From: a virus | IMG/VR virus record: IMGVR_UViG_3300035183_000421 | Coordinates: 1-29,539 of that record | Strand: one strand, 5' to 3' | Length of the DNA: 29,539 bases | Shown: positions 5,417-29,539 of the stretch, piece by piece | How the letters are laid out: each line of letters opens with the position of its first letter | Position numbering within the stretch: the stretch's first letter is position 1 | Position numbers and translations under genes: made by a program | The notes under the pieces: generated by a model | The model's input: the letters and a program-made list of their open reading frames with translations, nothing else | Databases searched by the model: none | What the model was told of the DNA's origin: nothing

Positions 5417-5469
5417 CGCGCACGGCACGGGCGTGCACATGGCGGCAAAGCCGAAAACAGCGCGGCGAC

Positions 5470-5568
5470 GGGCGCAAATTTGGCGCGTGTGTTATATCGG
5501 GGCGGGTGGCTATCGCGGCTCCTAGGGCATTCTAGGCGGCCGTTTTTATGGGGTGAATTTAAGAAAAT
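5470..5568. repeat. 97-bp dispersed element, copy A
   Basis: Copy A is an approximately 97-bp element shared with 21017-21114 and 28315-28411, all in the same orientation. The most conserved part is GCGGCTCCTAGG, then CATTCTAG, with a CCTAG/CTAGG dyad, preceded by TTATATCGGG and followed by a T-run and GGGG. Here it lies in the 172-bp gap between the large terminase and the P60 gene. This copy carries CTATCGCGG where the others have CGATCGCGG. Function unknown. Confidence 0.85.
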
Positions 5569-5588
5569 CGACATAGAAGGCCAAAACA

Positions 5589-12715: not shown

Positions 12716-13384
12716 ATGAAGCGCGACAAGGGCGCGGTCATAGACAGCGCTGGAATTGAAACGGTGCGCGGGCTAAACGTCACGGCGCAAGGGTGGGCGT
12801 GGGACAAAATAGTCGAGGCCAAACGAATCGGCGGGCTATTAAAGGGGCGGTTTGCGGTCGTGCTGCGCAATATAGGGGCTGGCGGGGCAGAGGCCGACGT
12901 TAAAGCGCTGACGCGGGACGGCATCAGTTCGCATTTTTACGTTGGGCGTGGCGGTGAAGTGGTGCAAATGGTGCCGCTGCATTATGCGGCCTGGCATGCG
13001 AACGTTAGCGCGTTCGTGCACCCACGTAGCGGGGCAATGTTCGTCGGCATGAACCAATACAGTTTAAGCATTGCGCTGGGCAATTGGGGCGAAGTGCGGC
13101 GCGGGGCGGACGGGCGGTTTTACGCGGCACCCATTCATTTCTCGCGTGTGGTCGTAGACGAAAGCATGGTCGTGAATGTTGGCGGGCTATTTTTTGAGCG
13201 GTATACGGCGGAGCAAGTCGAAGCCTTGGCCGACTTGTTAAAGCGCATACGTGCGACCTTTTCGGAAGTTGAATTTTTGCTCCGCAGGTCTGATATAGTA
13301 AGGCCTAGGATGAAATGCGACGAGCCAACGCTGGCGTTGGACATGGAACGGCTACGTGAAGAATGTGGTTATATTCGGCTATGA
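12716..13384 (+). CDS. Amidase_2-fold protein lacking zinc-ligand histidines
   Basis: The fold is that of N-acetylmuramoyl-L-alanine amidases (AmpD/T7 lysozyme type). SSHFYVGRGGEVVQMVPLHYAAWHA (residues 71-95), NQYSLSIALGNWGE (113-126), YTAEQVEALADLLKRI and RSDIVRPRMKCDEP (191-204) follow the family order. The first zinc-ligand histidine, normally in a VVxHxT block, reads VVLRN with Arg51. The one before SDI reads Arg191. Only the acidic or cysteine ligand (C201/D202) remains. It may bind peptidoglycan without cutting it. Upstream, 12685-12714 is a 9-codon mini-cistron (MNKKTRGGV) whose stop lies one base before this ATG. Confidence 0.8.
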   Translation: MKRDKGAVIDSAGIETVRGLNVTAQGWAWDKIVEAKRIGGLLKGRFAVVLRNIGAGGAEADVKALTRDGISSHFYVGRGGEVVQMVPLHYAAWHANVSAFVHPRSGAMFVGMNQYSLSIALGNWGEVRRGADGRFYAAPIHFSRVVVDESMVVNVGGLFFERYTAEQVEALADLLKRIRATFSEVEFLLRRSDIVRPRMKCDEPTLALDMERLREECGYIRL

Positions 13385-14746: not shown

Positions 14747-15937
14747 ATGGACGCGGAAGTGCGCAAGGCAATCGAAGACAAGGTCGCGGAAATTGTCGCG
14801 GCGCGGCTAAGCGACGCGATGAAAAACGCGGAAGCAAAGGCAAAGGAAAGCGCGGCGCGTGCGCCGTGGGTAGGGCTACCCGAGGGCGATGCCCCGAAAC
14901 CCGCGGAAGTTAGCGGGCGCGTGATTCGCGCCATAATCGCGGCGCGCGGCGACATGAAGACGGCGCGCGACTTAGCGCTGGGCAGCGTTAAAACGCGGGC
15001 GTTCGGCGAAGCGGTGGAAAAGGCACTGCTCGCATCGCGGCCGACAAGCGGCGGCGTGCTGCTGGCGCCCGAAGTTAGCACGGACATTATTGGGCTGCTA
15101 TACGCCAACACGGTAGTGCGCGGTAGCGGCGCGCCCGTGGTGAACATGCCAACGGGGCTCATGGACATCCCGCGGGTGGTTGAAGGCGACGAGGCGCATT
15201 ACATAGGCGAAGGCGCACCAGCACCGACCACGAGCATGAAATTCGGCAAGGTGACGCTGGTCGCGAAAAAGTTGGCGGCGTTCGTCCCGATTTCTAATTC
15301 ACTGCTGCGGTTTGACACGGCGGGCCAAGCGGACACAATCGTGCGCAATGACTTAGCTCGCAAGTTGGCGGTACGCGAAGACAAAGCATTTTTGCGCGGG
15401 AGCGGGGCGGAAGGCGAACCCAAAGGCATGCGGTACGCGTGCGACCCAACCAACGTCACGGCTAGCGCGGGCACGTCGCTGGCGCAAATACGCACGGACT
15501 TGAAGGACTTGCTGAACGCATTGGCGACCAAAAACGTGCCAATGACCAACGTTAACTGGTTCATGAACCCCGCGGTGGCTAACTATTTGCGCCTTGCCGT
15601 GTCCGACGGCAACGGCAACCTTGTTTTTGGCGCGGAGTTGGCGCAAGGGCGGCTCATGGGCTATCCCGTGCGGCTTACCACGAGCATACCCACGGGGCTA
15701 GGTAGCGGCGGGGACGAAACCGAGGTCATACTTGCGGACGTGGCTGAGACCGTTATAGGCGAAACCACCCAAATTTTAATCTCCGCAAGCGAAGAGACCG
15801 CGTACTACGACGAAAGCGGCAACGTTGTGTCGGCGTTCCAGTCCGACATGACCGTAGTGCGCGCAATCACGGAGCACGACTTTGCGCTGCGGCACGCGCA
15901 GGCGGTCGCGGTGAAAACGGGCGTAAAATGGTACTAG
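14747..15937 (+). CDS. Major capsid protein, HK97 fold
   Basis: The 396-residue protein has an N-terminal charged helical region (about residues 1-95) suited to act as a scaffold or delta domain. The HK97-family core follows: TSGGVLLAPEVSTDIIGLL, IPRVVEGDEAHYIGEGAPAPTTSMKFGKVTLVAKKLAAFVPISNSLLR, and FLRGSGAEGEPKGM. The C-terminal domain includes FQSDMTVVRAITEHDFALRH. The upstream protease would remove the N-terminal region. It forms the icosahedral shell. The only AGCT tetramer I found in the window lies in this gene near 15354. Confidence 0.95.
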   Translation: MDAEVRKAIEDKVAEIVAARLSDAMKNAEAKAKESAARAPWVGLPEGDAPKPAEVSGRVIRAIIAARGDMKTARDLALGSVKTRAFGEAVEKALLASRPTSGGVLLAPEVSTDIIGLLYANTVVRGSGAPVVNMPTGLMDIPRVVEGDEAHYIGEGAPAPTTSMKFGKVTLVAKKLAAFVPISNSLLRFDTAGQADTIVRNDLARKLAVREDKAFLRGSGAEGEPKGMRYACDPTNVTASAGTSLAQIRTDLKDLLNALATKNVPMTNVNWFMNPAVANYLRLAVSDGNGNLVFGAELAQGRLMGYPVRLTTSIPTGLGSGGDETEVILADVAETVIGETTQILISASEETAYYDESGNVVSAFQSDMTVVRAITEHDFALRHAQAVAVKTGVKWY

Positions 15938-15957
15938 TACCATCACAAGGGTAAAGC

Positions 15958-16383
15958 ATGAGCACATTTGAAAAGTTCGACATTGTTGCGGCGACCATTA
16001 CGGGGGCGGCGTTCGCGCCGCAATCGGTAACAAGCGGGACCCCGATTAACGGCGAGACCATAGACAAAGAAGGGACAAACGTTAACGCAACGCATGCGGC
16101 GGTCGTACTGGTAGGTACGGCGACACTGAGCAGCGGCGCAACGCTGACGTTAACCGTAGCGCGGGAAACGGCGGACAGTTCTGGGTTCGCGGGGTCTACG
16201 GTTACCACGGCGGGCACGGTGACCATTAGTTCGAGCGGCGCATTTGCGGCGGCCGTACGCGTAGACGTGACCACGGCAAAGCGGTATCTGCGCGCACGGG
16301 TAACACCAACGTTAAGCGCGCCAGGTACGGACTCGGCGACGGTCGGCGCGGCGTATATGCTTGCGGGGTTGAGCGTGGTCTAA
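15958..16383 (+). CDS. Putative head decoration protein
   Basis: This 141-residue protein is rich in Ala, Thr, Val and Ser, with alternating polar and hydrophobic residues suggesting a beta fold (ATLSSGATLTLTVARETADSS, then VTTAGTVTISSSGAF and RARVTPTLSAPGTDSA). It follows the capsid gene by 20 bp and precedes a strong terminator, so capsid and this protein probably share a transcript and high expression. Position and composition suggest a capsid-stabilising or decoration protein. No family was recognised, so a function in the head is inference. Confidence 0.6.
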   Translation: MSTFEKFDIVAATITGAAFAPQSVTSGTPINGETIDKEGTNVNATHAAVVLVGTATLSSGATLTLTVARETADSSGFAGSTVTTAGTVTISSSGAFAAAVRVDVTTAKRYLRARVTPTLSAPGTDSATVGAAYMLAGLSVV

Positions 16384-16409
16384 GCCCAAAGGGCTGTGTG
16401 TCATGGCGG

Positions 16410-16448
16410 GGCGTGTGCCTGCGGCTGTCGCGGGTACACGCCTTTTTT
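16410..16448 (+). terminator. Rho-independent terminator after capsid and decoration genes
   Basis: A 14-bp stem pairs 16410-16423 with 16429-16442, including two G-U pairs, around the 5-base loop GCTGT, and is followed by six T. It separates the head-protein genes from the neck genes and would let capsid mRNA accumulate above downstream messages. Read-through or another promoter must serve the neck genes. Confidence 0.88.
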
Positions 16449-16466
16449 AGTTAGGGGCTTGGCGCG

Positions 16467-17096
16467 GTGATTAAAATAGAAAAGAAAACGGCGCGGCGGT
16501 ACCTAGCGGAACCGTTGGGCGTGCTGGCGCAGTTCCAAATAGACGCAGCGGAGCGCGACTTTGTAGAGCGGTGCGTTTTGCAAGCGTCGGAAACGTTGGA
16601 GCGGTTCGTAGGGCGTACACTAGCACGGGCCAAAATACGGGAGCGGTTTTGGGCGCCGAATATGCGCGCGGGCGACGGGCTCGTACTTGCGGCGTACCCA
16701 ATCGTGTCGGTCGTACAGGTGAAGGTGGACGGGCTTGGCGCAATTGACTTAAGCGGCGTGGACATGGTGGCGGCGGAGGGCGGAATATTGCGGTGGCTAG
16801 ACGGCAGCGGCGTGCGGTGGTATAGCGGGGACATTGAGGTGGTGTACGTTGCGGGTTGGGTCGGCTACTACGCGGGGGACACGGCGCCGCCAGTAGACGG
16901 CGAATTAAACGACGGGGCGCCAAACGTGCCCGCGGACGTGGAGCGGATTGTGGCGGACTTGGCGGGCATTTTCTACGATGACCGTAAGCGCAACCTGTTG
17001 CGCGTAAGCGAAAGCGAAGGCGACGTCAGCGTGTCCTATAGGGCGGTGGACGAGTTTTTAGTGGAACGGGCGGGGCGATTGCGGTCACTATGGTGA
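16467..17096 (+). CDS. Head-tail connector, gp6-like adaptor
   Basis: The 209-residue protein begins at GTG. A helical N-terminus (DAAERDFVERCVLQASETLERFVGRTLA) is followed by beta strands (YPIVSVVQVKVDG, GDIEVVYVAGWVGYY) and a C-terminal helix with VPADVERIVADLAGIFYDDRK. This helix-beta-helix order is that of HK97 gp6-type adaptor proteins that form a ring below the portal. Its place upstream of the head-closure-like gene agrees. The start lies just after the terminator and overlaps none of it. Assignment is by pattern and position. Confidence 0.75.
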   Translation: MIKIEKKTARRYLAEPLGVLAQFQIDAAERDFVERCVLQASETLERFVGRTLARAKIRERFWAPNMRAGDGLVLAAYPIVSVVQVKVDGLGAIDLSGVDMVAAEGGILRWLDGSGVRWYSGDIEVVYVAGWVGYYAGDTAPPVDGELNDGAPNVPADVERIVADLAGIFYDDRKRNLLRVSESEGDVSVSYRAVDEFLVERAGRLRSLW

Positions 17097-17419
17097 ACAA
17101 TAGGGGCATGCACAAGACTAGGGCGCAGGTTTGGGTGGCCCAACGGGTTTATGACGGGCGTGGCGCGTGGCGCATGGAATGGCAAGACTTAGGCGCGCGC
17201 ATATGGTGCAGAATGGTGCCATCAAGCACGGCGGAAATACAGGCGGGCGGCTTGCCGCAAAATGTGCGTTATTACACGGTTTACTTGGATTACGGCGCAA
17301 GCATAGAGCGCGGGGACAAAATACGAATAGGCGCAAACGACTACATAGTCGAGTCGGTAGTGGTGCAAAGTGAAGGCGGGAAAAAGGTCATAGTACGGGG
17401 GACTGAACGTGGCCAGTAG
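17090..17419 (+). CDS. Head-closure protein, SPP1 gp16-like
   Basis: The 109-residue small beta protein contains WQDLGARIWCRMVPSSTAEIQAGG, then VRYYTVYLDYGASIERGDKIRIGANDYIVESVV, the pattern of phage head-tail joining proteins that plug the connector until the tail binds. It overlaps the adaptor gene by 7 bp and the next gene by 11 bp, a tightly coupled neck operon. Normal length for the family. Confidence 0.82.
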   Translation: MVNNRGMHKTRAQVWVAQRVYDGRGAWRMEWQDLGARIWCRMVPSSTAEIQAGGLPQNVRYYTVYLDYGASIERGDKIRIGANDYIVESVVVQSEGGKKVIVRGTERGQ

Positions 17420-17846
17420 ATTCGAACCAAACCCGCAATTTATTACAAGGGTAGTCGGCGAGTTGGAAGGCATTGGCAAGCGACTAGGCGCGGGGCTGGT
17501 CGGCGAAATCACTAAGGTGCTGAACGTGCGGCAACCCGTGGCGTTTGTCACTAGCAAAAAAACGGGGAACAGGTACATAGTCGGGCTCGAGCCGTCGGAA
17601 CCTGGCGAACCCCCCAAGATGCTAACGGGGCGGTTGCGCGATTCAATAAGTTACGCGGTCGAACGTGACGGGAATAAGGTCGTGGTGAATTTACGGGCTG
17701 CGACGAATTACGCGGCACGGCTTGAGTTCGGCTTTGTTGGCGTGGACAGGCTAGGGCGAAGGTACACGCAAGCGCCTAGGCCGTACATGCTGAGCACAAT
17801 TTCAAAGGAATGGCAGCGCGTACTATACGAAGCGGCAAAGGGATAG
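17409..17846 (+). CDS. HK97 gp10-like neck/tail-component protein
   Basis: The 145-residue protein starts at GTG. The diagnostic blocks are GEPPKMLTGRLRDSISYAVE (about residues 59-78), NYAARLEFGF (about 99-108) and PRPYMLSTISKEW near the C-terminus, all typical of the gp10 family. These proteins act at the head-tail interface during tail attachment. The order connector, closure, gp10-like, terminator-like is the standard siphovirus neck series. Confidence 0.88.
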   Translation: MASRFEPNPQFITRVVGELEGIGKRLGAGLVGEITKVLNVRQPVAFVTSKKTGNRYIVGLEPSEPGEPPKMLTGRLRDSISYAVERDGNKVVVNLRAATNYAARLEFGFVGVDRLGRRYTQAPRPYMLSTISKEWQRVLYEAAKG

Positions 17847-17855
17847 GGCTAGGCT

Positions 17856-18278
17856 ATGCTGGCGGATTGGATAAGTGAGGCGTTGTACGAATATTTGGCG
17901 AGCAATGCGACGGTGGCGGCAATGGTGAGCACGTACGACGGGCGGCCGGCCGTATTCTTCGGGGATTCGGTGCCCGAAGGGGCGGACTTGCCGTTCATAT
18001 GGGTGCAACCAGCGCTGGCGGACAGCGCGGCGGACAGCAAAACAACGCGGGCGCGGGTGCGGCGGTACGTGCTAGGCATATACGCGGCGGCGGACGGGCG
18101 GGCGGCATGGGTAGACGACGCGGCGGAACGGCTACGCGGCGAATTGCACCGCGCGAGCATTATTTCGGGCGAGGGCGCGTTCGTGGTTACGGCGGCGGAC
18201 ATTGTAGGCGCGGCGCCTAGTAGCGAGCAGATAGTCGGGCGGCTGGTACAGTTCACGGTGCGGTTCGCCGAACGGTAG
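17856..18278 (+). CDS. Tail terminator / tail completion protein (DUF3168-like)
   Basis: The 140-residue protein has an N-terminal helix (MLADWISEALYEYLASNATV), the strand DLPFIWVQPALADSAADSKT, and a beta-alpha-beta region ending VGRLVQFTVRFAER. This matches the small tail-completion proteins that cap the tail tube and bind the head. Position after the gp10-like gene supports the call. It is followed by a 95-bp gap with a palindrome and a promoter. Confidence 0.75.
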   Translation: MLADWISEALYEYLASNATVAAMVSTYDGRPAVFFGDSVPEGADLPFIWVQPALADSAADSKTTRARVRRYVLGIYAAADGRAAWVDDAAERLRGELHRASIISGEGAFVVTAADIVGAAPSSEQIVGRLVQFTVRFAER

Positions 18279-18286
18279 GGCTGCGG

Positions 18287-18364
18287 TTATGCGCGCGCGC
18301 ATAAACATTTGAACCGTTGCATAAAATATAAGCGAGCGCGTATATTATGGCATAGGCTAGGAGG
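18287..18364 (+). promoter_or_regulatory. Palindrome, candidate promoter and strong Shine-Dalgarno
   Basis: A perfect 18-bp palindrome TTATGCGCGCGCGCATAA occupies 18287-18304. Just downstream, TTGCAT at 18317-18322 and TATATT at 18341-18346 form a sigma70-like pair with an 18-bp spacer. AGGAGG at 18359-18364 lies 8 nt before the GTG start of the next gene, one of the strongest ribosome-binding sites in the window. The palindrome could be an operator. Its alternating CG core is also prone to Z-DNA. Confidence 0.55.
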
Positions 18365-18372
18365 GTTAAAAG

Positions 18373-18678
18373 GTGTACACATACCCGACCACGTTAGCAA
18401 CGTACACGGACATAGACAAGAACATGACGGCGTTAACGGGCGTGGCGGAGTTCGCGTTGGGCGACCGCGGCGTGCTATACCTTAAGGCCGTCGGCGGGGC
18501 GGCTACGGTGCGAATACATAGACGCGGCGGTGGCGGGTACTACCCAGATGTTGCGTTCGATACCATCACAATGGCGGCCAATTCTATTTGGGCGGTGTTT
18601 AACAGTCCGCGGTACGGCGGCATTGTTAAGGTTGAAAAGGTAAGCGGTGACGTGCGGTTTAAGGCGTTGGCAAAATAG
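18373..18678 (+). CDS. Small virion-associated protein of unknown function, A
   Basis: This 101-residue protein starts at GTG behind a perfect AGGAGG. Predicted as mostly beta: GVLYLKAVGGAATVRIHRRGGGG, ITMAANSIWAVF, YGGIVKVEKVSGDVRFKAL. The closing EKVSGDVRFKAL resembles DAVSGDVKITT in the next protein, and both have a similar layout, so they may be diverged copies. The context between tail terminator and tail tube suggests an abundant structural part such as a tail or head decoration protein. I do not recognise a family. Confidence 0.55.
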   Translation: MYTYPTTLATYTDIDKNMTALTGVAEFALGDRGVLYLKAVGGAATVRIHRRGGGGYYPDVAFDTITMAANSIWAVFNSPRYGGIVKVEKVSGDVRFKALAK

Positions 18679-18696
18679 AGCGGCGGGGTGAACGGT

Positions 18697-19053
18697 ATGG
18701 CGACAATTAGCGCGACAAGATTCTTGGACGATGCCCAGGGCGCGTTTGCGCTGACGGGTTGGGCGGCGTTGGACGCGTCGCCAGCGGAAAATGTTTATAA
18801 AAAGCAAGGCGGGGCGTGGCTACTATTGCGGAACACGAGCGCGGACACGGACGCCACGGTAACCATTGGGGCGGCGGCCGAATTGATTCGCGCGACCGAT
18901 AGCGGCGTAATAGGGCAAACGGGCGGCGTACAGGTCACATTAGAAAAAGGCGGGTACGCGTACGCGTTCAATGTGGACGCCGTGAGCGGCGATGTTAAAA
19001 TCACTACAAGCAGCACAACGGTGCAAGCGTTGGCGTTCGTATTTGTGAGGTAG
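18697..19053 (+). CDS. Small virion-associated protein of unknown function, B
   Basis: The 118-residue beta-rich protein contains WLLLRNTSADTDATVTIGAAAELIRA, GVQVTLEKGGYAYAFNVDAVSGDVKITTSSTTVQALAFVFVR. The block LLRNTSADTDATVTI is of the kind seen in small phage structural proteins with immunoglobulin-like or jelly-roll folds. The C-terminal part resembles the preceding protein. ATG 18697 is preferred over GTG 18688 because GGGGTG lies 6 nt upstream. No enzyme motif was seen, and the function is unknown. Confidence 0.55.
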   Translation: MATISATRFLDDAQGAFALTGWAALDASPAENVYKKQGGAWLLLRNTSADTDATVTIGAAAELIRATDSGVIGQTGGVQVTLEKGGYAYAFNVDAVSGDVKITTSSTTVQALAFVFVR

Positions 19054-19057
19054 TGCC

Positions 19058-19717
19058 ATGCGGCAAATCAATTTGCGAAAAACCCCGTTCGCGGAGTTAA
19101 CGTTTGAAGCGGCAACGGGCACGGTAGAGTTGCCGTGGCGGTCGTGGCTGGTCGGCGAAAATACAAGCGCGGGGCTAACGGCAACGATAACATTCCCGCG
19201 GCGGATTCAAATGGCGCGCGGGCGGTGGCGGCCCGAAGAGAAGACGGTGGCGGTGCCAGTTGCGCCGTTGGTCGTGCTGCGGGTGGCGGAGCCCGTCACG
19301 GTAACGCTGAGCGGTTCGGGCTTTAGCGGCACACTGTTCACGGACATGTGGGCGGCGCGGACGTTCGATAATCGTTACACGCCAATCGTGGCCATGGAAC
19401 CGTATGCGTTTTATTCGGGGAATTGGCAAGTTATGAACACGGGGCACACGGATTTGCGGTTTTCGGCTGGGCTGGTCCTGTTCGATAACCCCAACCCAAC
19501 CCTAGCGTTTAGGCTTTTGCCCAAAGGTGCGGGCGCAGCGGCGGATTGGGTAACCATCCCGATGGAAACCTTGCCCATTTTAAACAACAATAGGCGCACG
19601 GTGATTAATACAACCCCCGCGACCATTTCAATGATGAGCGGCGGTACGGGCTACGACTTAAGCACGGCGCCGCCAGCGAATGTTAAAATTGCATTCTTAG
19701 TCGAGCCTGGCATATAG
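19058..19717 (+). CDS. Predicted structural protein of unknown function
   Basis: The 219-residue protein starts 4 bp after the preceding stop, so it is likely cotranslated. It is beta-rich with aromatic residues and no hydrophobic helix. Segments include LPWRSWLVGENTSAGLTATI, VAPLVVLRVAEPVTVTLSGSG and YAFYSGNWQVMNTGHTDLRF. Its place directly before the tail tube gene suggests a virion protein, possibly a tail or head accessory. I do not recognise it. Confidence 0.55.
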   Translation: MRQINLRKTPFAELTFEAATGTVELPWRSWLVGENTSAGLTATITFPRRIQMARGRWRPEEKTVAVPVAPLVVLRVAEPVTVTLSGSGFSGTLFTDMWAARTFDNRYTPIVAMEPYAFYSGNWQVMNTGHTDLRFSAGLVLFDNPNPTLAFRLLPKGAGAAADWVTIPMETLPILNNNRRTVINTTPATISMMSGGTGYDLSTAPPANVKIAFLVEPGI

Positions 19718-19755
19718 TAAAGAGGCCTGCTTGCGGGCGTGTAGGTTAGAACACT

Positions 19756-20154
19756 ATGGCGAACGAAATTAACGGCAGTAGGATTTTGGTGTATGCGTCG
19801 GCGGACGGGACGACGTTCGTGCCGTTAGCAGCGCAACGCGGCGGGTCGCGAACGCGGAACCGCAACGCGATAGACGTTTCAAGCAAGGCGGACGATGCGC
19901 AGCGCGTTATTAACGGACGTTATTCTAGCACGGTAAGCGTGGACGGGCTGTGGATTCTTAGCGACGCGGCGTTAACCATGCTACAGTCGGCGGTGCAAAA
20001 CGGCGACCCCGTTTATTTGCGGCTTTACATTGACGGCGTGGCCAAGGAAGAAGCGGAGGCCGTGTGCACGGACTTGACCGAAAACTACCCCGACCAAGAC
20101 GTGACCACGTACACGGCATCGTTCACGGTGAGCGGTAAGTGGGCCACGGTATAG
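19756..20154 (+). CDS. Major tail tube protein, TP901-1-like
   Basis: The 132-residue protein opens MANEINGSRILVYASADGTTFVPLAAQRGGSRTR and has NAIDVSSKADDAQRVINGRYSSTVSVDG, then PVYLRLYIDGVAKEEAEAVCTDLTENYPDQDVTTYTASFTVSGK, the typical order for the TP901-1-type tail tube family. Stacked hexamers would form the tube around the tape measure. It precedes the tail-assembly chaperones, as expected. Length is at the short end of the family. Confidence 0.9.
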   Translation: MANEINGSRILVYASADGTTFVPLAAQRGGSRTRNRNAIDVSSKADDAQRVINGRYSSTVSVDGLWILSDAALTMLQSAVQNGDPVYLRLYIDGVAKEEAEAVCTDLTENYPDQDVTTYTASFTVSGKWATV

Positions 20155-20211
20155 CGGGCGCACGGCTAACGGGCGGCGACATATTCCCCGCTGGGCGGGA
20201 AAGGAGACGGT

Positions 20212-20649
20212 ATGGCGCGGTATGTTGAGGTCAACGTTAGCGGTAAAAAGTACGCGGCGGCGCTGAACACCACGGCGTTGCGCGTACTTGAAGAAGTCCA
20301 CGGCATTAACCCGACCGAAGTTGCCAATGCGACGGGTCGGGTTAGTTTTTTGGGTCGGTTTTTCCATGCGCTGCTGGAAGGTGGGCGTGTCGCGGCGCGG
20401 GCCAACGGCATAAGCGACGCGGAAAATGCACGGCGGCGGCTTGATTTGGAAGACGCCGAAGCCTTAGTCGACGAAATCATGGGCGCGGGCGGCGTGGTGA
20501 ATACGGACGCGTTCGGCGCGGTAAGCATAGCGGACTTTTTTGCCAAGGTTTCGGAAATGTCGGCGTTCCGATACGTGCGGGACAAGCAAGCCGAAGACAA
20601 TGGGGGCGCGGACGGGGGAAACGCGGCGACGGGGGCGGCGGGGGAATAG
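20212..20649 (+). CDS. Tail assembly chaperone, G-like
   Basis: The 145-residue acidic protein carries a helical domain (TTALRVLEEVHGINPTEVANATGRVSFLGRFFHALLEGG), as in tail chaperones that coat the tape measure during tube assembly. The C-terminal region (NGGADGGNAATGAAGE) is flexible and holds a slippery heptamer, GGGAAAC, at 20616-20622. A strong ribosome-binding site GGAAAGGAG lies 5-6 nt before the ATG. Between tail tube and tape measure this is the expected gene, although an inverted cassette now separates it from the tape measure. Confidence 0.82.
   Translation: MARYVEVNVSGKKYAAALNTTALRVLEEVHGINPTEVANATGRVSFLGRFFHALLEGGRVAARANGISDAENARRRLDLEDAEALVDEIMGAGGVVNTDAFGAVSIADFFAKVSEMSAFRYVRDKQAEDNGGADGGNAATGAAGE
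20616..20622 (+). other. Programmed -1 frameshift site GGGAAAC
   Basis: In the chaperone frame the codons are GGG GGA AAC, so the heptamer reads G GGA AAC, a canonical X-XXY-YYZ slip site. After slipping back one base, reading from 20622 stays open through RGDGGGGGIAEPYYVGAM to the stop at 21005. Lambda uses the closely related GGGAAAG in its G-GT pair. No downstream pseudoknot was worked out. Confidence 0.85.
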
Positions 20650-21005
20650 CGGAGCCGTACTACGTCGGCGCAATGCGCACGGCACTACGGGCGGGCATTA
20701 GCGAAGCGCAGGCGTGGGCTATGACGGTCGGGGAAATAGGCGACGCGGCAGCGTTAGCACACGAACGGGCGGAATCCGAAGAGATTGCACGGGTACGGCT
20801 GGCGTACTACACGGCTATTTTCGAACGGCAGGAGCGGTTAAAGCCACTCGAGTTTTACCTTGCGCGCGCGGGGGCGCGTAAACCACCAACGCGGGAAGAA
20901 TACGAGGCGGTCAAGGCTGAAGCGCTGGCGCTGTGGCAAGCGGACGCAAAACCGAAGGCGGTCGCGCGCGGCATGGAACGAAAAAGCAAGGAAGGCGGCG
21001 ACTAG
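20622..21005 (+). CDS. Tail assembly chaperone T-part, made as G-T fusion
   Basis: This frame has no usual start near its beginning; the first ATG is at 20673. It is entered by the -1 slip at 20616-20622, giving a fused protein of about 264 residues (join 20212-20622 and 20622-21005). The segment ALRAGISEAQAWAMTVGEIGDAAALAHERAE resembles the T-type domain with its W-x-M-T-x-x-E core. A minor fusion of this kind recruits tail tube protein to the tape measure in lambda. Here the same job is inferred from order and frameshift. Confidence 0.8.
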   Translation, partial: RGDGGGGGIAEPYYVGAMRTALRAGISEAQAWAMTVGEIGDAAALAHERAESEEIARVRLAYYTAIFERQERLKPLEFYLARAGARKPPTREEYEAVKAEALALWQADAKPKAVARGMERKSKEGGD

Positions 21006-21016
21006 GGCGACATAAT

Positions 21017-21114
21017 GGGCCAAATTGGCGCGTGTATTATATCGGGGCGGGTGGCGATCGCGGCTCCTAGGGCATTCTAGGCCCATATTTTTTTGGGGGT
21101 AATATGCGAAAATT
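21017..21114. repeat. 97-bp dispersed element, copy B
   Basis: This copy lies in the 130-bp gap between the convergent ends of the chaperone operon (+) and the inverted cassette (-). It begins GGGCCAAATTGGCG, with a GCCAA-A-TTGGC dyad, and contains GGCGATCGCGGC, the CCTAG/CTAGG dyad, TTTTTTT and GGGGG. The gap holds nothing else. A terminator role would suit this location, but the T-run is set off from the hairpin by several bases. Confidence 0.85.
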
Positions 21115-21135
21115 GCAGTACGGCGGGGGATTTGG

Positions 21136-21594
21136 CTATTTTGCGCGTACGCGGTTGTCGGCGTGCACGTGGTCGTCGGGGTAGTTGTATTTTACCCAGT
21201 CGAAATACTTGGCGGCAATAGGGCCAAGCACGGCGGACGGGATAATTTTGCCCGTGGTGCGGTGTATGGCGTAGAAGTCCACGGCTATGCCGCCATATTC
21301 GGGCAAGTGCTTAGACGTGCGGGATACGGCGCCACCTTGGTCGGTGTACCCAAGGCGGGCGGCAAGGGCTTCATTTTCGGACGGGAGGCGGGTGCCGCAT
21401 GTTATTTTTATTATTACGTCGTTGCCCAGTTCGCGGTTTAGGTGCGCGCGTAGTTGTTCAAGGGACACCAATAGGGTCGGGTGCACGATTACCAACCCAG
21501 TTGTTTTACTTTCAAATTCGTTTAGGCTGAAGTTCGACACAAGTTGCCCGTTTAGGTCGGTGAACAGTTTAATGTGGTTCGATTCCGTAAGCAT
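21136..21594 (-). CDS. Peptidase M15-like endolysin
   Basis: The 152-residue protein has FSLNEFES (a common M15 opening), then HPTLLVSLEQLRAHLN, ITCGTRLPSENEALAARLGY, the zinc motif SKHLPEYGGIAVDF with His96 and Asp106, and the C-terminal DHVHADNR with His144. All zinc ligands of M15 peptidases appear present. These enzymes cut peptide cross-links in peptidoglycan and serve as endolysins. The ATG overlaps the stop of the preceding 43-residue gene as TAATG, so translation is coupled. An upstream TTG at 21639 is a poorer start. Probably the active endolysin, as the amidase-like protein at 12.7 kb lost its ligands. Confidence 0.85.
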   Translation of the reverse strand: MLTESNHIKLFTDLNGQLVSNFSLNEFESKTTGLVIVHPTLLVSLEQLRAHLNRELGNDVIIKITCGTRLPSENEALAARLGYTDQGGAVSRTSKHLPEYGGIAVDFYAIHRTTGKIIPSAVLGPIAAKYFDWVKYNYPDDHVHADNRVRAK

Positions 21595-21725
21595 TACCCA
21601 AAAACCCCGTAAAGAATGCCCAAGGCTGCGCCCGCGCAAAACACGGCGAAATAAATCAGGGCGCGGACAATAAGCGGGATAAGGTGCTGGCTGCCGCGGG
21701 CAATGTGGCGGACTTCGTTCAGCAT
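21594..21725 (-). CDS. 43-residue single-helix membrane protein
   Basis: This small gene starts at ATG (complement of 21723-21725), 4 nt after the portal stop, with AAGGG about 11 nt upstream inside the portal gene. The product has a basic N-terminus (MLNEVRHIARGSQH) and then one long hydrophobic helix (LIPLIVRALIYFAVFCAGAA and LGILYGVFG). Its stop overlaps the endolysin start. A lone transmembrane protein directly before an endolysin suggests a holin or pinholin. It resembles no family I recognise. Confidence 0.7.
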   Translation of the reverse strand: MLNEVRHIARGSQHLIPLIVRALIYFAVFCAGAALGILYGVFG

Positions 21726-21729
21726 GGTC

Positions 21730-23832
21730 TTAACCCTTAAGCGCGGACAGTATAACGGTTTTTTGCGTTTCGAGCCAAGTGTTGAATTTGTCGCGGAACG
21801 AAGCGGCTAGGTTTATCTCTTCGCGTAGGTGCAAATGCCAGGCTTTTATGTAATAAACGGGCGCAAGTTTGCGGCCGAAATACGGCACAAGCGTGCAAAG
21901 GCAATTAATGTCTTGGTCGGCTATGCCAAAACCGCCAGGGTGGTACGCGGTCTCGTTGCGGTCGTTCACGAACGGCTCGGCTATGGGGCGGACTTGGCCG
22001 TCAAGGCGTGAGCCAGGGCTGTGTTCTTCGCGGTGTTTGACGGGTCCTTGGGCAATGACCCACTGAAGGGCATGGCTACCTGCTTGTGCAAACGATTCGC
22101 GGCGGGCAAACGAGGACGCCGTGTGTACTTCGGTGCGGGCTATAGCGTGCGACCGTACGCCACGGGCATCGTTGAACACGTCCACAATGGCGTCCTGTAT
22201 TTTTGCAATGGGCAAACCTTCTTGCACGGCGTTGGTTAGCGTGTTGCGTATGCGGCGGCGGAGCGATTCGGTTACGACGCCCTTAATGCGGGTAGCGGCG
22301 CGCGTGTTTAAAAATTCAAGCACGGCGGGGCTGGCTAGGTTGAAATTAATCGAGCCGAGCCCGAAGGATATGCCTGCCGTGTTCCCAATATAGGTCAAAA
22401 TTTTGGCATATTCGGGTTTTAGGATTTGGACAAGGTCGTCGGTTGAAAGTTGGGCGGCTATGCGCACGGCATCGGTTTCCGAAAGTGATTTTTTAAGGTA
22501 CGCGGGTGCGGCCGTGGCGGTGGTCGGTTGGTCGGGTTGGTCGGGCGGTGTTTCGTCGGCGGGCGGTTCGTCGGTAGACGCGGGGCGGGTGCCAGGTATA
22601 CGTTCCCGAATTTGTGCAAGGTTGGACACGATGAACTGACCGCCACCGTTCGGGAACGGCGGGAGTTCGGCCACGGCACGCCATTCGTCTAGCGTGAACG
22701 CCATGGGCATGGCGGACATTGCGCGCAGTTGCAGGTCGGCGTCGGCTTGCGCAAGTGGGTAGTAGTCGAGCGCATAGTCGCCGAAGTCGGGCGCAAGTTG
22801 CGACTGAAAGGCCGAGCGGAATACTTCAACAATGGGCTCGACCGTGTGCCGTATGAAAAGGTACTCGGCGGCGGAAATGGTCGCACGGTTCGAATTTTGC
22901 ACGTCGCCCAATAGTTCGGGCGGGATGGCAAAAATGCGCTGAATATAGCGGGCGAGTTCGGTGCGGGCCGCCAAGGTCGCCGTAATGTTAAAGTCGTTCG
23001 GGAGCACGGTGACCGTGATGTCTTTGCCGCTGATGGCTGCGGCGCGGCCAGTATTGCGGGCGCCACCGTAGCGCTGGGCCCAATCTTGCTCAAGGCGGCG
23101 CGCGGCGGCGGGGTCGAACGTGCCCGTGATGAGCAGGTCGGGGCGTGCGCGGTTTTGAATTTGCGCAAGGGTATACTCGCTGATGGCTTCGTCTAGGGCT
23201 ATCTCGTCGACTAGGGTCTGCGCAAGTCCTAGCGTTTTGCGGTACGGCGCGGTAAAGTCGGGCAAGTAAATATGCACGACGTCGGCTGGGCTTGCGGTCA
23301 TGGTGTGGCCGAATAGGCTAAAACTATATTGCGGCATTTGGCCAAACGCGGGGCGCGCGGTAATGTCGGACTGCGGGACAATCCACAAGGCCGTGACCGT
23401 GCCGCTGTCGTCGCGTTGTTTATAGATTAGGACTTCGCCAGTGGTAAGGTATAGCGCGGCGGCAAGGCGGTAAAAGGCCGACTTTCCTATGGCGCACGGG
23501 TTCTCCAATAGCGTTAAAATGGGGGCGGATTCGTCGGCTTCGGTGAACGCGCTGGGGTATTGCCGCGTAATAAGGCGGCGGGTGTCGGGCGCGGACTTTT
23601 TCAAAAGGCGGAAAGAACGGGCGGCATCGGGTGGCGTGGCATTGGTTGGGGTATAGGCGCGCCAGACGATTTGGGCAACGGCGCCGCCTATTTTGTGAAT
23701 TATAGCGGCAAGGGTCGGCACACGCGAGGCATACTGCGCGGCGATATATGCGTCGCGGGTCGGCACGGGTGTATGCGTGGGCAGGTAGAACGCCATAGGC
23801 TCGGGTGCGTTTTGCTTGCGTATGCGCGGCAT
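21730..23832 (-). CDS. Portal protein fused to MuF-like head morphogenesis domain
   Basis: This 700-residue protein joins two virion proteins. Residues 1 to about 415 follow the HK97-type portal pattern (LTLLENPCAIGKSAFYRLAAALYLTTGEVLIY, IVPQSDI, ISGKDITVTVLPND, FAIPPELLGDVQNSNRATISAAEYLF). Residues 416-445 are a Pro/Thr/Asp linker. Residues about 500-652 are MuF-like, with SHAIARTEVHTASSFA and QDINCLCTLVPYF. The portal forms the dodecameric DNA channel, and MuF-type domains are usually separate ejected or minor head proteins. The gene is on the minus strand, alone among head genes, and its protein is rich in Thr, Pro and Ala, because the coding strand is C-rich. Separate genes would be expected next to the terminase. 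Confidence 0.9.
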   Translation of the reverse strand: MPRIRKQNAPEPMAFYLPTHTPVPTRDAYIAAQYASRVPTLAAIIHKIGGAVAQIVWRAYTPTNATPPDAARSFRLLKKSAPDTRRLITRQYPSAFTEADESAPILTLLENPCAIGKSAFYRLAAALYLTTGEVLIYKQRDDSGTVTALWIVPQSDITARPAFGQMPQYSFSLFGHTMTASPADVVHIYLPDFTAPYRKTLGLAQTLVDEIALDEAISEYTLAQIQNRARPDLLITGTFDPAAARRLEQDWAQRYGGARNTGRAAAISGKDITVTVLPNDFNITATLAARTELARYIQRIFAIPPELLGDVQNSNRATISAAEYLFIRHTVEPIVEVFRSAFQSQLAPDFGDYALDYYPLAQADADLQLRAMSAMPMAFTLDEWRAVAELPPFPNGGGQFIVSNLAQIRERIPGTRPASTDEPPADETPPDQPDQPTTATAAPAYLKKSLSETDAVRIAAQLSTDDLVQILKPEYAKILTYIGNTAGISFGLGSINFNLASPAVLEFLNTRAATRIKGVVTESLRRRIRNTLTNAVQEGLPIAKIQDAIVDVFNDARGVRSHAIARTEVHTASSFARRESFAQAGSHALQWVIAQGPVKHREEHSPGSRLDGQVRPIAEPFVNDRNETAYHPGGFGIADQDINCLCTLVPYFGRKLAPVYYIKAWHLHLREEINLAASFRDKFNTWLETQKTVILSALKG

Positions 23833-23933
23833 AGTATTCTTTTAGTATGCGACAAGTCGCGGACTAAAGTTAATTATGCCACGGGTGACGGGCGAAAGTC
23901 ATAAAAAAGCAATAAAGCGGCGAGGTGCGGGCT
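23833..23933. promoter_or_regulatory. Divergent intergenic region with candidate promoter for the inverted cassette
   Basis: The 101-bp gap lies between divergent genes. Read on the minus strand it has ATGACT, an 18-bp spacer and CATAAT, a weak sigma70-like pair pointing into the portal gene. A dyad GCGAC-AA-GTCGC lies at 23849-23860. For the tape measure, GAGGTG lies 6 nt before the ATG at 23934. No good plus-strand promoter was seen. Confidence 0.45.
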
Positions 23934-26900: not shown

Positions 26901-27194
26901 GTCGCACCAATGGCGCTGATAGGCGAGCGCGGGCCCGAGGCCGTGTTGCCGTTAAAACGGTTCGCGGACGGGTCGCTGGGCGTACGGGCGGAAACCACGG
27001 GCGGCGGGGTCGTGGTCAACGTGTTTAACAACGCTGGCGGGGTCGAAGTAGACACGCGCACAACACGGGCGGCGGACGGGACTAGGGCGGTCGAGATATT
27101 CGTTAAGGAAGCGGTGCGCGCGGGACTAATGCGCGGCGACTTTGACGCCGAAATGCGGAGCATGTACGGCGTGCGGAGGCTAGGGTTTGCATGA
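23934..27194 (+). CDS. Tail tape measure protein
   Basis: This 1086-residue protein is mostly helical, with hydrophobic segments in the middle (about residues 380-475, including LFAAGVSAGTLGLGLLQRALEFVGL) and a Gly/Ala spacer near 625-665 (GGGGAGGAGGAEG). The C-terminal block GGVFNGGGVVPMARGAVITG, then ALIGERGPEAVLPLKR, is the hallmark of siphovirus tape measures. It sets tail length and is ejected with the DNA. By the lambda scale (about 850 residues for about 135 nm), a tail near 160-170 nm would be expected. ATG 23934 with GAGGTG 6 nt upstream is preferred over GTG 23925. Confidence 0.93.
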   Translation: MAFNVQGGEIRVPIILEGMQAWQQLKQAAANAVNALRGVDLSVERIKNGLTRLGPIAGKAFLAYGGAATTVIHQINAINEASDFLRARTGKMGEEFEGVFGAVRRSLSKTASDVMTVADVVKILTIHLNLSGKDLEELTERLTAVNDVMGENVAEEFARTVKFFGLTQDEYEALLNTAVKVSQEIGGSVADVLASARMLNLLGPALFTNWEKAFGAIAKAKEAGVEVEQAKRAVVGLVVALDQMAAVTGLNIEQVWERLGAVMAQDTAQAKELQKILFGSTVAGAAARKLFEVGAFDPRAIQEAGEELRRSAEDVIHMREAVLSADSAFSFFINNVQRGLAPMVEDWGFWGQVGRQAAKQIGDGLEWVTSAFMRLPGVVRTAIEGFSLFAAGVSAGTLGLGLLQRALEFVGLRVDLLGTAWRAIAATFGIVWRVAGFVAARLTTVGAVIAGAAAWAKVFADWRESIAGVAAIWDVLTGKVGVFDVWRELKREIGDALGIDVNALEVKFDEALGVIFSFAGKVIDTFSELKSAVTDTAKSIAQSVAGWFSWLGDTLVFHSIVPDMAQEIVAVFRDMYGRLGVLSQDYFAAEIERVKKQAEAIVDAYEEAERARITATRKVLEAADGGGGAGGAGGAEGLSPELQRAMQLAGLTAAGGTGGGGGKMVEKEVAVFSAEEQKRMLDELTAKTNAMRDAIANAGEELVRFFDIVGQADPLAALAGQVFDVVQLFERFGGLTPTVDVLDAIGAKIGVANLNLDQMLMLHERLTEVAGKLGGVYERVADGLLEWWRAAQKAKNATDAVATATVTVKRSFADMWKQMDAGERAMAIMDGIGRVLAALPQKFRKVAQAADVGFNIVRDAIEIAKGNLLAFFDILAQVLSLLGIFGDKVEKEKSAFEKMKDELSDALEDFSRRFAETLATLVREGKAQFGDLVDYILNKLLEITLYYTISYPIEQGIRAAFKGIFAKGGVFNGGGVVPMARGAVITGPVVAPMALIGERGPEAVLPLKRFADGSLGVRAETTGGGVVVNVFNNAGGVEVDTRTTRAADGTRAVEIFVKEAVRAGLMRGDFDAEMRSMYGVRRLGFA

Positions 27195-27565
27195 GCATAG
27201 TGTGGCCATTTAGTGACGGGCTTGGCGCAATGCCGCAAAGCGTAGAAGTGAGCGAGGCCCCCGATGTCCTAACGCAAACGGTAGACGTCGGCGCGCCAAA
27301 AACGCGGCTATTGCGGCGCGTAGCGGACAAAATCGTAAAGGTGCGAGTGCTAATGAACGGGCAACGGCTGGAGCAGTTCATGGACTGGTGGCGGCTGTCT
27401 ACACGGTGCGGCATGTTCGAGTTCGAATGGGTGGACGCGGTCGGGGACGGGCTCGCAACGTACAGGTTCGAAACGGCGCCGCAGTATAGTCTTGTGCGCG
27501 GCGGTCCCACGTCGGCGGCACGGGTGTGGGAGGTGACTTTTACGGCGCGAATGTTAGGGGCTTGA
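27191..27565 (+). CDS. Distal or minor tail protein
   Basis: The 124-residue protein starts in an ATGA overlap with the tape measure stop. It is beta-rich and carries LMNGQRLEQFMDWWRLSTRCGMFEFEWVDAVGDGLATYRFE, the sort of F-x-W-x-D core found in small minor tail proteins encoded just after tape measures (lambda gpM-like). It would join the tail tube to the tip. The usual next genes (P60, DUF1833-like, J) are instead at 5.6-11.7 kb. Its stop codon overlaps the -35 box of the small-RNA promoter. Confidence 0.7.
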   Translation: MSIVWPFSDGLGAMPQSVEVSEAPDVLTQTVDVGAPKTRLLRRVADKIVKVRVLMNGQRLEQFMDWWRLSTRCGMFEFEWVDAVGDGLATYRFETAPQYSLVRGGPTSAARVWEVTFTARMLGA

Positions 27566-27880: not shown

Positions 27881-28075
27881 CAAGGCTAAGACTAAGACTT
27901 AAACGCAATAATAAGAGAGAGAACCCTATAGTAGTAGTCGGGGGTGTGGAAAAGTTGCGGCCTTTTGTGGAAAACGGTCGTAACCAGTTGAAAATACACG
28001 ACTAAAGATGCCTATGGGGTTGTGGATAAGTTGTGGAAAACCTGTGGATAAGTTGTTAAAAAGTTGTGGAAAAAC
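27881..28075. other. oriC-like DnaA-box cluster
   Basis: Six 9-mers match TGTGG(A/T)(A)AA, the minus-strand form of the DnaA box TTWTNCACA. TGTGGATAA starts at 28021 and 28043, and TGTGGAAAA starts at 27945, 27966, 28032 and 28065. All have the same orientation. Start distances are 21, 55, 11, 11 and 22 bp, so the boxes are on nearly one face of the helix. An A/T- and purine-rich flank with AAGACT repeats (27881-27930) could be the unwinding element. This looks like a replication origin or a DnaA-titrating site. Which it is cannot be told from sequence. Confidence 0.75.
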
Positions 28076-28189
28076 GCGGGCGGGCGGGCTGGCTAACGCG
28101 CACGTAACGAGCGCGGGCATAGTGCTAGCGCATACGGTCGGCACGTAGGCAATGCGCCACGCATGCCTTCCAAATTTTCCCGCGGGGCA

Positions 28190-28314
28190 TAGCGCGGGCG
28201 CATGCATGGCACGCACACACGGCGCACACATACACACGTGCGCATGCGACAGTGGCACGCACGCATGTACACACGGGCACGGCGCACACGCATAGGCATA
28301 GGGCGGCGGAAAAT
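28190..28314. repeat. Alternating purine-pyrimidine low-complexity tract, block 1
   Basis: The stretch is made of CACACGG-, GCGCAC- and GCATG-type steps that almost strictly alternate purine and pyrimidine, and the usual G excess on the plus strand disappears. Such DNA readily adopts the Z form. No gene was seen. Confidence 0.65.
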
Positions 28315-28411
28315 GGGCCAAGTGGGCACGTGTGTTATATCGGGTCGGGGGGCGATCGCGGCTCCTAGGCCATTCTAGCGGCATAGTTTTTTGGGGGCAA
28401 TACGTAAAAAT
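28315..28411. repeat. 97-bp dispersed element, copy C
   Basis: Copy C sits inside the gene-free control region. It keeps TTATATCGGG, GGCGATCGCGGCTCCTAGG and CATTCTAG, and ends in TTTTTT-GGGGG-CAATACG. Differences from copies A and B are scattered single bases. Open frames read through it on the minus strand show changes that alter amino acids, so it is not a conserved coding unit. Confidence 0.85.
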
Positions 28412-28435
28412 GGCCGTGCGGCACGGATTGGGCTA

Positions 28436-28710
28436 TTACACGCACGGCACGGTGCGCACGCGCGCGTACGTACATGGCGCACACGCGGCCACGCAGTGCA
28501 TACACGGCGCACGCATATGCACACGGGACACGCACGCAATGCGTGGCATGACTACATGCGCATGCGCGCATAGGCACGTACACGGCGCACATGCATGCAT
28601 ATGCACATGGTGCACACACAGGCATGCAATGCGTGGCGTAAATACACATGCACGCAAACGCATGCACACGGTGCACGCATACATATACGGCTCGCACGCA
28701 CATGCGCGAG
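28436..28710. repeat. Alternating purine-pyrimidine tract with degenerate tandem units, block 2
   Basis: Units resembling GCATGCAATGCGTGGC, then a TACATGCGCATGCGC-type run and CACACGG or GTGCACGC, recur loosely every 60-75 bp. They do not form equal direct repeats with unique spacers. The sequence is Z-DNA-prone and also rich in ACGT/GCATGC-type palindromes. It ends at inverted repeat copy 2. Confidence 0.65.
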
Positions 28711-28730
28711 ACCCTATATTTTACTAGGGT
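28711..28730. repeat. Inverted repeat, copy 2 of 4
   Basis: The arms ACCCTA and TAGGGT with centre TATTTTAC match copy 1. It lies 83 bp upstream of copy 3, and is not directly followed by a promoter. The gap between copies 2 and 3 has TTGCAC/GTGCAA and CGCGTAATTACGCG palindromes. Confidence 0.8.
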
Positions 28731-28740
28731 TTTCAAAAGT

Positions 28741-28920
28741 TGCACTCGCGTGCAATGGTTCGCGTAATTACGCGCACATGCCGACATGCGTGAAACCCTA
28801 TATTTTACTAGGGTTTTCACACGCAAAAAATTTTGCTTGACTTTGGGGGTTACTTTGTGTTATGATTTAGGTAGAAGGTTGGGCATGGGGCCCAACCAAA
28901 AACAAGGAAAGGAGACAACA
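28741..28920 (+). promoter_or_regulatory. Leader 2: duplicated control region of the 98-residue gene
   Basis: The order is as in leader 1: TTGCAC/GTGCAA dyad, CGCGTAATTACGCG palindrome (28761-28774), inverted repeat 28793-28816, GCAAAA-AA-TTTTGC dyad, TTGACT at 28837-28842, 18-bp spacer, TATGAT at 28861-28866, hairpin GGTTGGGC/GCCCAACC at 28877-28897. AAAGGAG at 28908-28914 lies 6 nt before the ATG. The segment 28899-28915 pairs with the small-RNA loop at 16 of 17 positions. Confidence 0.82.
28793..28816. repeat. Inverted repeat, copy 3 of 4
   Basis: Same 24-bp sequence as copy 1, with AAACCCTA and TAGGGTTT arms. It lies 21 bp upstream of the -35 box of leader 2, nearly the same spacing as in leader 1. 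Confidence 0.82.
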
Positions 28921-29217
28921 ATGAACACAAGCAAGAGCCAATCGCAAGCGACCACCTATTACACGCCGCTGATTGCGCGGTTGCCGCGCGCGAGCCGTGT
29001 GCGTAAGGCATACGAACACGGGAAAATGTCGTACGCCCGCGCGGTGTACGCGGCGAGCATGATCATCGCGCGGCTCGACGGTGCGGTGTACGACACGCCG
29101 CTGTGCACGAGCCCCGCAATGCTGCGGGATGCCGTAGAAGAATATAGCGCGCAACTGCGTGCGCGCGAGTACGAATTAAACCAAGGCAAAAGCATGCACC
29201 CGATCCCCGTAGACTAA
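28921..29217 (+). CDS. 98-residue protein of unknown function under leader 2
   Basis: The protein is helical and basic in its first half (LIARLPRASRVRKAYEHGKMSYARAVYAASMIIARLDG) and acidic later (AMLRDAVEEYSAQLRAREYE). No known domain or membrane segment was recognised. It has the best-placed ribosome-binding site in the region and its own terminator-like hairpin downstream, so it is a dedicated small transcript. It shares its promoter layout and its small-RNA target with the sliding clamp, so it may act in replication or its timing. Two of the six GATC sites in the window lie in it. Confidence 0.75.
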   Translation: MNTSKSQSQATTYYTPLIARLPRASRVRKAYEHGKMSYARAVYAASMIIARLDGAVYDTPLCTSPAMLRDAVEEYSAQLRAREYELNQGKSMHPIPVD

Positions 29218-29243
29218 GCGAGCCCGCAACGGCTGGCGCAATG

Positions 29244-29283
29244 CCCCGACGGTGGCGTAACGAGCCCCGTCGGGGTTCGTGTT
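29244..29283 (+). terminator. Putative terminator of the 98-residue gene
   Basis: A 9-bp GC-rich stem pairs CCCCGACGG (29244-29252) with CCGTCGGGG (29267-29275) around a 14-base loop, then TTCGTGTTT. The T-run is broken, so efficiency is uncertain. Confidence 0.65.
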
Positions 29284-29299
29284 TCATGGCATGCGTGAG

Positions 29300-29319
29300 A
29301 CCCTATATTTTACTAGGGT
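29300..29319. repeat. Inverted repeat, copy 4 of 4
   Basis: ACCCTA and TAGGGT arms around TATTTTAC, as in copy 2. After it comes CGTAATTACGCG-like sequence, part of another leader-like array, but no promoter is visible before the window ends. Confidence 0.78.
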
Positions 29320-29325
29320 TTTCGC

Positions 29326-29523
29326 AATCGGCACGGGCATGCAATGCGTGCACGTAATTACGCGTGGACGGTGCACGCATACGGCGCACGCATGCAATGC
29401 ATGGCGTGGCTACATGCGCATGCGCACGCACACACAGCGCGCGCACGCATACGCGCGGGCATGTAATGCACGGCATGAATACATGAGCACACGCACATAC
29501 ATGCATGTGTATAGGCTGGCAAT
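29326..29523. repeat. Alternating purine-pyrimidine tract, block 3
   Basis: GCATGCAATG-, GCACACAC- and GCGCGCGCAC-type steps continue the pattern of blocks 1 and 2. No gene seen. Confidence 0.6.
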
Positions 29524-29539
29524 GTGGCCAAATTGGCGC
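29524..29539. repeat. Beginning of a fourth 97-bp element, cut by window end
   Basis: The last 16 bases, GTGGCCAAATTGGCGC, match the start of element copy B at 14 contiguous positions (GGCCAAATTGGCGC). The rest would lie beyond the window. Confidence 0.55.

Follow-up and report, generated by a model that had tools for sequence, protein, structure and literature searches.

Why should a tailed phage carry a row of binding sites for DnaA, the replication initiator of its host? Phages are usually thought to bypass DnaA by means of their own initiator or primer system. The question is raised by a non-coding stretch of an IMG/VR virus record (IMGVR_UViG_3300035183_000421; 29,539 bases, classed as linear), which was analyzed in full and is called the window below. 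The original prediction for this DNA had singled out an array of six DnaA boxes on nearly the same face of the helix, through which the phage would either rely on host DnaA for replication or titrate it.

Six DnaA boxes and an 11-bp ladder

The six 9-mers were found exactly where they had been predicted, in a single orientation, and they are all exact matches to TTWTCCACA (TTTTCCACA or TTATCCACA on the minus strand), in agreement with the DnaA consensus assigned to them. The trio-proximal box (TTTTCCACA) occupies positions 27945 to 27953 and the second one (TTTTCCACA) positions 27966 to 27974, 21 bp from the first. The second box is separated by 55 bp (5 x 11) from a ladder of boxes with rungs 1 (28021 to 28029, TTATCCACA), 2 (28032 to 28040, TTTTCCACA), 3 (28043 to 28051, TTATCCACA), and 5 (28065 to 28073, TTTTCCACA), all on the minus strand. 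The vacant position is filled in exact 11-bp register by a degenerate minus-strand box with two mismatches at 28054 to 28062 (rung 4; TGTTAAAAA on the plus strand), which lies within a repeat member and brings the ladder to five sites.

The proposed phasing was borne out as well, with a phase coherence of the six boxes of R = 0.986 at a period of 10.9 bp. Random non-overlapping placement of boxes reached the same coherence with a P of 0.0003 (20,000 trials). The window contains 8 matches to TTWTNCACA; shuffled sequences contained 1.8 on average and 6 at most, and 8 or more matches were obtained in 0 of 100 shuffles.

DnaA-trios and the least stable segment adjoin the boxes

The interval first proposed for the element held all of the boxes but started one element too late, as TAGTAGTAG, TCGGGGG, and a segment of low stability at 27887 to 27936 adjoin it on the 5′ side. 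Directly 5′ of the first box, TAGTAGTAG represents three DnaA-trios, TAG TAG TAG (read 3′-GAT-5′), at positions 27929 to 27937 of the plus strand, and it is unique in the window on both strands. In the sequence, a GC-rich spacer of 7 nt, TCGGGGG (27938 to 27944, plus strand), leads from the trios to the first box. On their other side, the trios overlap by 8 bases with a candidate DNA-unwinding element, the 50-mer at 27887 to 27936, which is the least stable of the record by nearest-neighbor free energy (rank 1 of 29,490, lowest).

The chance of finding TAGx3 at a spacer of 0 to 14 nt from any of the six boxes was 3e-5, 1.2e-4, or 1.3e-3 under three composition models, and the stability minimum of the record fell within 100 bp upstream of a random site with a P of 0.0022, both tests having been chosen after the sequence had been seen. 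Chance alone would satisfy the published loose trio rule, (.A.)x3, at about 19% per box, for which reason trios were counted in the strict TAG form only.

Bacterial origins show the same order of elements

The order and strand of the elements in the window, i.e., unwinding segment, DnaA-trios, GC spacer, and boxes, are those of the basal unwinding system (BUS) of bacterial oriC. As set out in three reports, a BUS of the Bacillus subtilis type comprises one or more boxes, a GC-rich gap, at least three trios, and an adjoining unwinding segment; DnaA bound to the boxes beside the trios assembles in an ATP-dependent manner into an oligomer, which takes hold of the trios in single-stranded form and separates the duplex, a process for which no fewer than three trios suffice (PMC6669920, PMC8287927, PMC10721633). 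The trio rule calls for at least three trios with a central A and the consensus 3′-GAT-5′ within 16 bp of a box (PMC8287927). Where a BUS has at least one consensus box, the window has six; where it has at least three trios, correctly stranded and no more than 16 bp from a box, the window has TAGx3 at 7 nt from the box at 27945; and the unwinding segment that adjoins its trios is its least stable 50-mer, as in the bacterial positive controls described below.

The likeness is one of sequence layout only, and it is imperfect. The window belongs to a phage record without dnaA or dnaN, its spacer is 7 nt long whereas the bacterial gap averages about 4 bp, and its second box lies 21 bp off rather than in immediate tandem. 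The number of trios, three, is the minimum. The spacer consists of 4 nt plus one triplet, TCG, and is reduced to 4 nt only if this trio-proximal triplet, which is without the conserved central A, is taken as a degenerate trio.

As a positive control, 84,980 bacterial and archaeal genomes (species) were scanned with the strict pattern TAGTAGTAG-N0-14-TGTGGAWAA-N1-30-TGTGGAWAA, which yielded 20 loci. DnaA or DnaN was detected by tblastn in the fetched DNA of 16 of them, and DNA among the least stable 0.5% was located on the trio side at 12 of the 20 loci but on the box side at only 1 of 19. Both results indicate that the pattern and the side of the instability mark real bacterial origins. The window has its trios on the same strand as the 20 loci. 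In the majority of cases, 3 to 4 nt separate the trios from a first, often imperfect box, and a perfect box starts at 12 to 14 nt; at three others, the perfect box starts 4 nt (L125), 6 nt (L126), and 3 nt (L133) after the trios. The 7-nt spacing of the window was absent among the 20 loci.

The closest chromosomal likeness is a locus of Gloeomargarita sp. SKYG116 situated beside dnaN (L134). It displays TAGTAGTAG, a GC gap, and boxes as in the window and also has, further downstream, a set of three boxes that point the same way and follow one another in 11-bp steps, as the window does. Unlike the window, it has a 4-nt gap to an imperfect first box, it contains more boxes, on both strands, and it is chromosomal. 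An oriC proper lies on a chromosome, usually by dnaA or dnaN, and the window is a virus record; judging from its sequence, the element of the window appears to work like an oriC unwinding module rather than as a chromosomal oriC.

The replication origin proposed in the original prediction thus gains from an array that is joined, in oriC order, to trios and an unwinding segment, in a record in which no DnaA or DnaB domain was found; the proposed alternative of titration is retained and is weighed below. We consider it probable that the region from 27887 to 28073 is an oriC mimic carried by the phage and that host DnaA fires it.

Phased arrays and BUS-like loci in other viruses

By itself, the array is not remarkable, a point on which the original prediction is weakened. 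At least 119 other viral contigs contain three TGTGGAWAA sequences at steps of exactly 11 bp, and DnaA boxes are found in named phages, e.g., T5. The matches listed group into 88 clusters. None of the 88 clusters had TAGx3 at a distance of up to 14 nt from the first box, 1 of the 88 had TAGx2 near it, and unstable DNA at the 0.5% level displayed no side bias (6 upstream and 8 downstream of the 76 usable clusters). Since there is neither trio enrichment nor a side preference of unstable DNA, most viral phased arrays are probably not BUS origins, and the idea that all of them are origins found no support. The genes nearest to the 88 arrays (116 proteins of at least 90 amino acids) belong to mixed families, including terminase and replication families, with no single context.

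The abundance of such arrays, and their lack of BUS features, would fit a titration or decoy function, in which host DnaA is sequestered by the array and chromosomal initiation is delayed, while the trios and the unstable segment are incidental. Boxes as such, which a datA-type titration site would need, are indeed present in the window. However, titration requires no trios, no GC spacer, and no unwinding segment, all three of which the window has in oriC order, and six high-consensus boxes are, by general knowledge, few compared with the DnaA supply of a cell. We regard titration as unlikely, albeit as the strongest of the rival explanations.

Apart from the window record, which the scan may leave out, the strict pattern was found in a single IMG/VR contig (L124). 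A relaxed pattern, TAGTAG-N3-9-box-N0-30-box, was found in 29 viral contigs. By inspection, 9 of the 29 have a G-containing gap of 3 to 4 nt after the last trio (L147, L148, L150, L153, L158, L165, L167, L173, and L174); 7 make up one AT-rich family, in which the gap measures 9 nt and an unstable segment is absent upstream, 6 form one family with TAATAGTAG-TAAGT, and the other 7 are mixed. None of the 18 relaxed-pattern records tested had a Bac_DnaA match over the cutoff, with one match below the threshold (G017). The terminase phrog_2 was matched in 9 of the 18, including the records of L165, L173, and L174; it was not found for L147, L148, L150, L153, L158, and L167, whose viral status is by IMG/VR assignment alone. 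Among 12 such records, a DnaB_C domain was detected only in the two of L171 and L173.

L173 belongs to a record of 29.8 kb (G011) and reads (TAG)4-GGGT-box-box, with seven boxes in total; within the locus examined, stability is lowest in a segment on the trio side. The 30 proteins of G011 that were scanned include tail sheath, portal, terminase, DnaB-like, DnaD-like, and ParB-like families, and no DnaA was found in this record. L173 resembles the window in its trios, G-rich spacer, multiple boxes, trio-side instability, terminase, and lack of DnaA. It differs in that its spacer has the canonical 4 nt and two of its boxes stand in immediate tandem, and by its DnaB-like and DnaD-like proteins and contractile-tail families. 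In L176, which comes from the same record, G011, as L173, positions 13208 to 13360 show a textbook BUS layout with seven DnaA boxes. Another contig, from IMG dataset 3300036768 (L107), contains five TGTGGAAAA boxes at an 11-bp step and two more; no match to it was found among the window proteins compared.

BUS-like sequences were also encountered in gokushoviruses, as a by-product of two queries rather than in a survey. KT264804.1 (L182, positions 398 to 520) has TAGx4, a GGTGC gap, TGTGGAAATGTGGATAA, and more boxes downstream, and KT264798.1 (L183, positions 398 to 425) has TAGx4 or more, GGGC, and TGTGGAAAA. Both are single-stranded DNA (ssDNA) viruses of about 5 kb in which TAG-trios, a short G-rich gap, and DnaA boxes are laid out as in bacterial oriC. 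Trios also occur in gokushovirus KT264816, which lacks an exact box, and in the fecal phage MT836079, whose box is inexact.

Origins containing DnaA boxes have been suggested for phages before. In Pseudomonas phage vB_PseuGesM_254, an AT-rich stretch with DnaA boxes was proposed as the origin by Ori-Finder, and the available part of that description makes no mention of DnaA-trios or of a phased array (PMC11512268). Among titles and abstract openings of the literature on DnaA-trios or oriC-like elements in phages and on gokushovirus DnaA, we found no description of a phage BUS.

Array-like sequences are present in many GenBank phages, including T5 and several Klebsiella and Salmonella phages, and several of the matches lie near record ends or terminal repeats, in T5, Siara, phiEap-1, and Arthrobacter phages. 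The boxes of T5, like those of the window, are in non-coding DNA, namely, in the left terminal repeat. According to one report, repeats, palindromes, and DnaA boxes mark the injection-stop signal of T5 (PMC13250531). The array of the window, which sits in low-complexity DNA 1.5 kb from the end of the record, could likewise be an injection-stop or genome-end element. Nevertheless, no overlap was seen between the ends of the window record, its end is not known to be that of the genome, and T5, unlike the window, has no TAGTAG beside its boxes (L145). This is the most improbable of the explanations considered.

Genomic context of the array

The window phage is a long-tailed, siphovirus-like phage, as profile searches identified terminase, portal, capsid with protease, tape measure, and tail families among its proteins. 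The record is a fragment that is incomplete at its left end, because a methyltransferase-like reading frame located there is open upstream. The array sits in a non-coding stretch 3′ of a plus-strand open reading frame (ORF) at 27191 to 27565, which follows the tape measure gene and, in the ORF list, stops 321 bp before the unwinding element; the adjoining ORF at 23925 to 27194 matches tape measure families. Two D12-type adenine methyltransferase genes are present, at 68 to 694 (a fragment) and 558 to 1592, and the window strongly avoids GATC (6 occurrences versus 103 expected from base composition).

Downstream of the array, positions 28100 to 29539 consist of a long low-complexity DNA rich in GCGCACACGCATGC-like units that reaches the end of the record and is perhaps the point where the assembly broke. 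A phage-specific non-coding repeat of 111 nt lies at 28312 to 28422 (plus strand), with further copies at 5469 to 5579 and 21014 to 21124; one of the three copies is located between convergent genes, and their conserved core surrounds ATCGCGGCTCCTAG. The imperfect palindrome CCCTATATTTTACTAGGG, possibly a repressor operator, is found in four copies, at 1695, 28712, 28796, and 29301, two of which are inside a duplicated promoter-like segment. As phage elements thus occur on either side of the array, a chimera with a chromosome is unlikely, and chromosomal contamination was rejected, with phage repeats and phage genes on both flanks and no dnaA or dnaN.

The duplicated segment, 208 nt at 28720 to 28927 that are 79% alike to positions 1619 to 1826, includes a promoter-like site (28837 to 28866, 10/12 matches). 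The boxes might belong to a regulatory region in which DnaA controls the transcription of neighboring phage genes. The site is more than 760 bp from the last box, however, its copy at 1619 is without a box array, and transcription control leaves the trios and the unwinding segment unexplained. We hold this to be very improbable.

None of the relatives found extends over the array: the only close one (L123), 97% identical, spans window positions 15051 to 23931 and thus ends short of it. Searches of viral contigs yielded no relatives for the tail ORF and the clamp protein discussed below, one distant locus for the terminase, and L123 only for the major capsid protein, for which genome contigs gave none. 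A search with an element-specific 23-mer returned 0 matches. Terminase relatives among phage records (455 records) are all below 60% identity and are spread over many hosts, and hence point to no particular one. GCGATCGC, presumably the cyanobacterial octamer, is present only twice in the window.

Replication genes

The profile search found no recognizable Bac_DnaA or DnaB_C domain in the window record, and neither DnaA nor DnaN was detected by tblastn. The only "DNA helicase" match, to phrog_16, was produced weakly by the terminase. An initiator of their own is brought along by many phages, and with a record that is a fragment, the gene for such an initiator may lie outside it. The boxes could then be iterons for a protein encoded in the missing part of the genome, their likeness to DnaA boxes being coincidental. 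The incomplete left end leaves room for this explanation; on the other hand, all six are exact DnaA consensus 9-mers adjoining trios, and none of the window proteins scanned could be convincingly assigned to an initiator, helicase, or primase family. Iterons appear improbable to us.

A phage-coded clamp and an antisense RNA adjacent to the array had been put forward as strengthening a link to replication. The product of the plus-strand gene at 1742 to 2911 is a possible sliding clamp, a part of the prediction for which a weak profile match speaks (phrog_947, E values of 1.9e-4 and 1.8e-4). Its comparison with bacterial DnaN by hhalign was weak (309 collinear columns, E value of 0.15, probability of 0.4%); no match was found in Pfam, PDB, or phage records, and DNA_pol3_beta, the Pfam beta-clamp, was not reported at an E value of ≤10. 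The AlphaFold2 single-sequence model, with a mean pLDDT of 34.5, was of no use for judging the fold. The antisense RNA found no support in Rfam, with only eukaryotic microRNA and internal ribosome entry site (IRES) models matching the low-complexity DNA, far below their gathering scores.

GC skew

The GC skew of the plus strand is about +0.2 through the coding region, including the minus-strand portal and neighboring gene (0.197). It remains at about +0.2 across positions 21136 to 23832 despite minus-strand genes and hence follows the DNA strand, not transcription, which hints at replication asymmetry. In the non-coding DNA around the array, the skew falls to about 0.05 with no switch of sign. 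The fall at the array is suggestive. On a circular genome replicated in both directions from 27.9 kb, a sign switch would tend to be expected, so its lack is a poor fit; the profile could be compatible with replication that is unidirectional or linked to packaging.

A model for host DnaA at the phage element

If the region is an oriC mimic, host DnaA would bind the 11-bp ladder and the two proximal boxes and polymerize along these same-facing sites on one face of the DNA. The polymer would reach the trios across the GC spacer and stretch the adjoining unstable segment open, and a host or phage-coded helicase would be loaded onto the opened DNA. We infer from the layout that DnaA binding, unwinding, helicase loading, and the start of phage replication may take place here, which would make the phage dependent on host DnaA. 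Against an oriC mimic stand the 7-nt spacer with its TCG triplet, the minimal number of trios, the absence of a relative over the region, the absence of a skew switch, and the fragmentary state of the record.

In a broader perspective, unrelated bacterial viruses, such as the tailed phage of the window, the phage of L173, and ssDNA gokushoviruses, might carry a complete oriC mimic, start their genomes with host DnaA, and compete with the chromosome for the initiator, some of them bringing DnaD-like and DnaB-like proteins for the next step; we give this generalization somewhat less than an even chance. In a phage with an unwinding module of the chromosomal type, replication would be tied to the cell-cycle initiator of the host, which would explain how a small genome replicates with few replication genes, and such phages would offer small natural oriC variants with which to test which features of the BUS matter.
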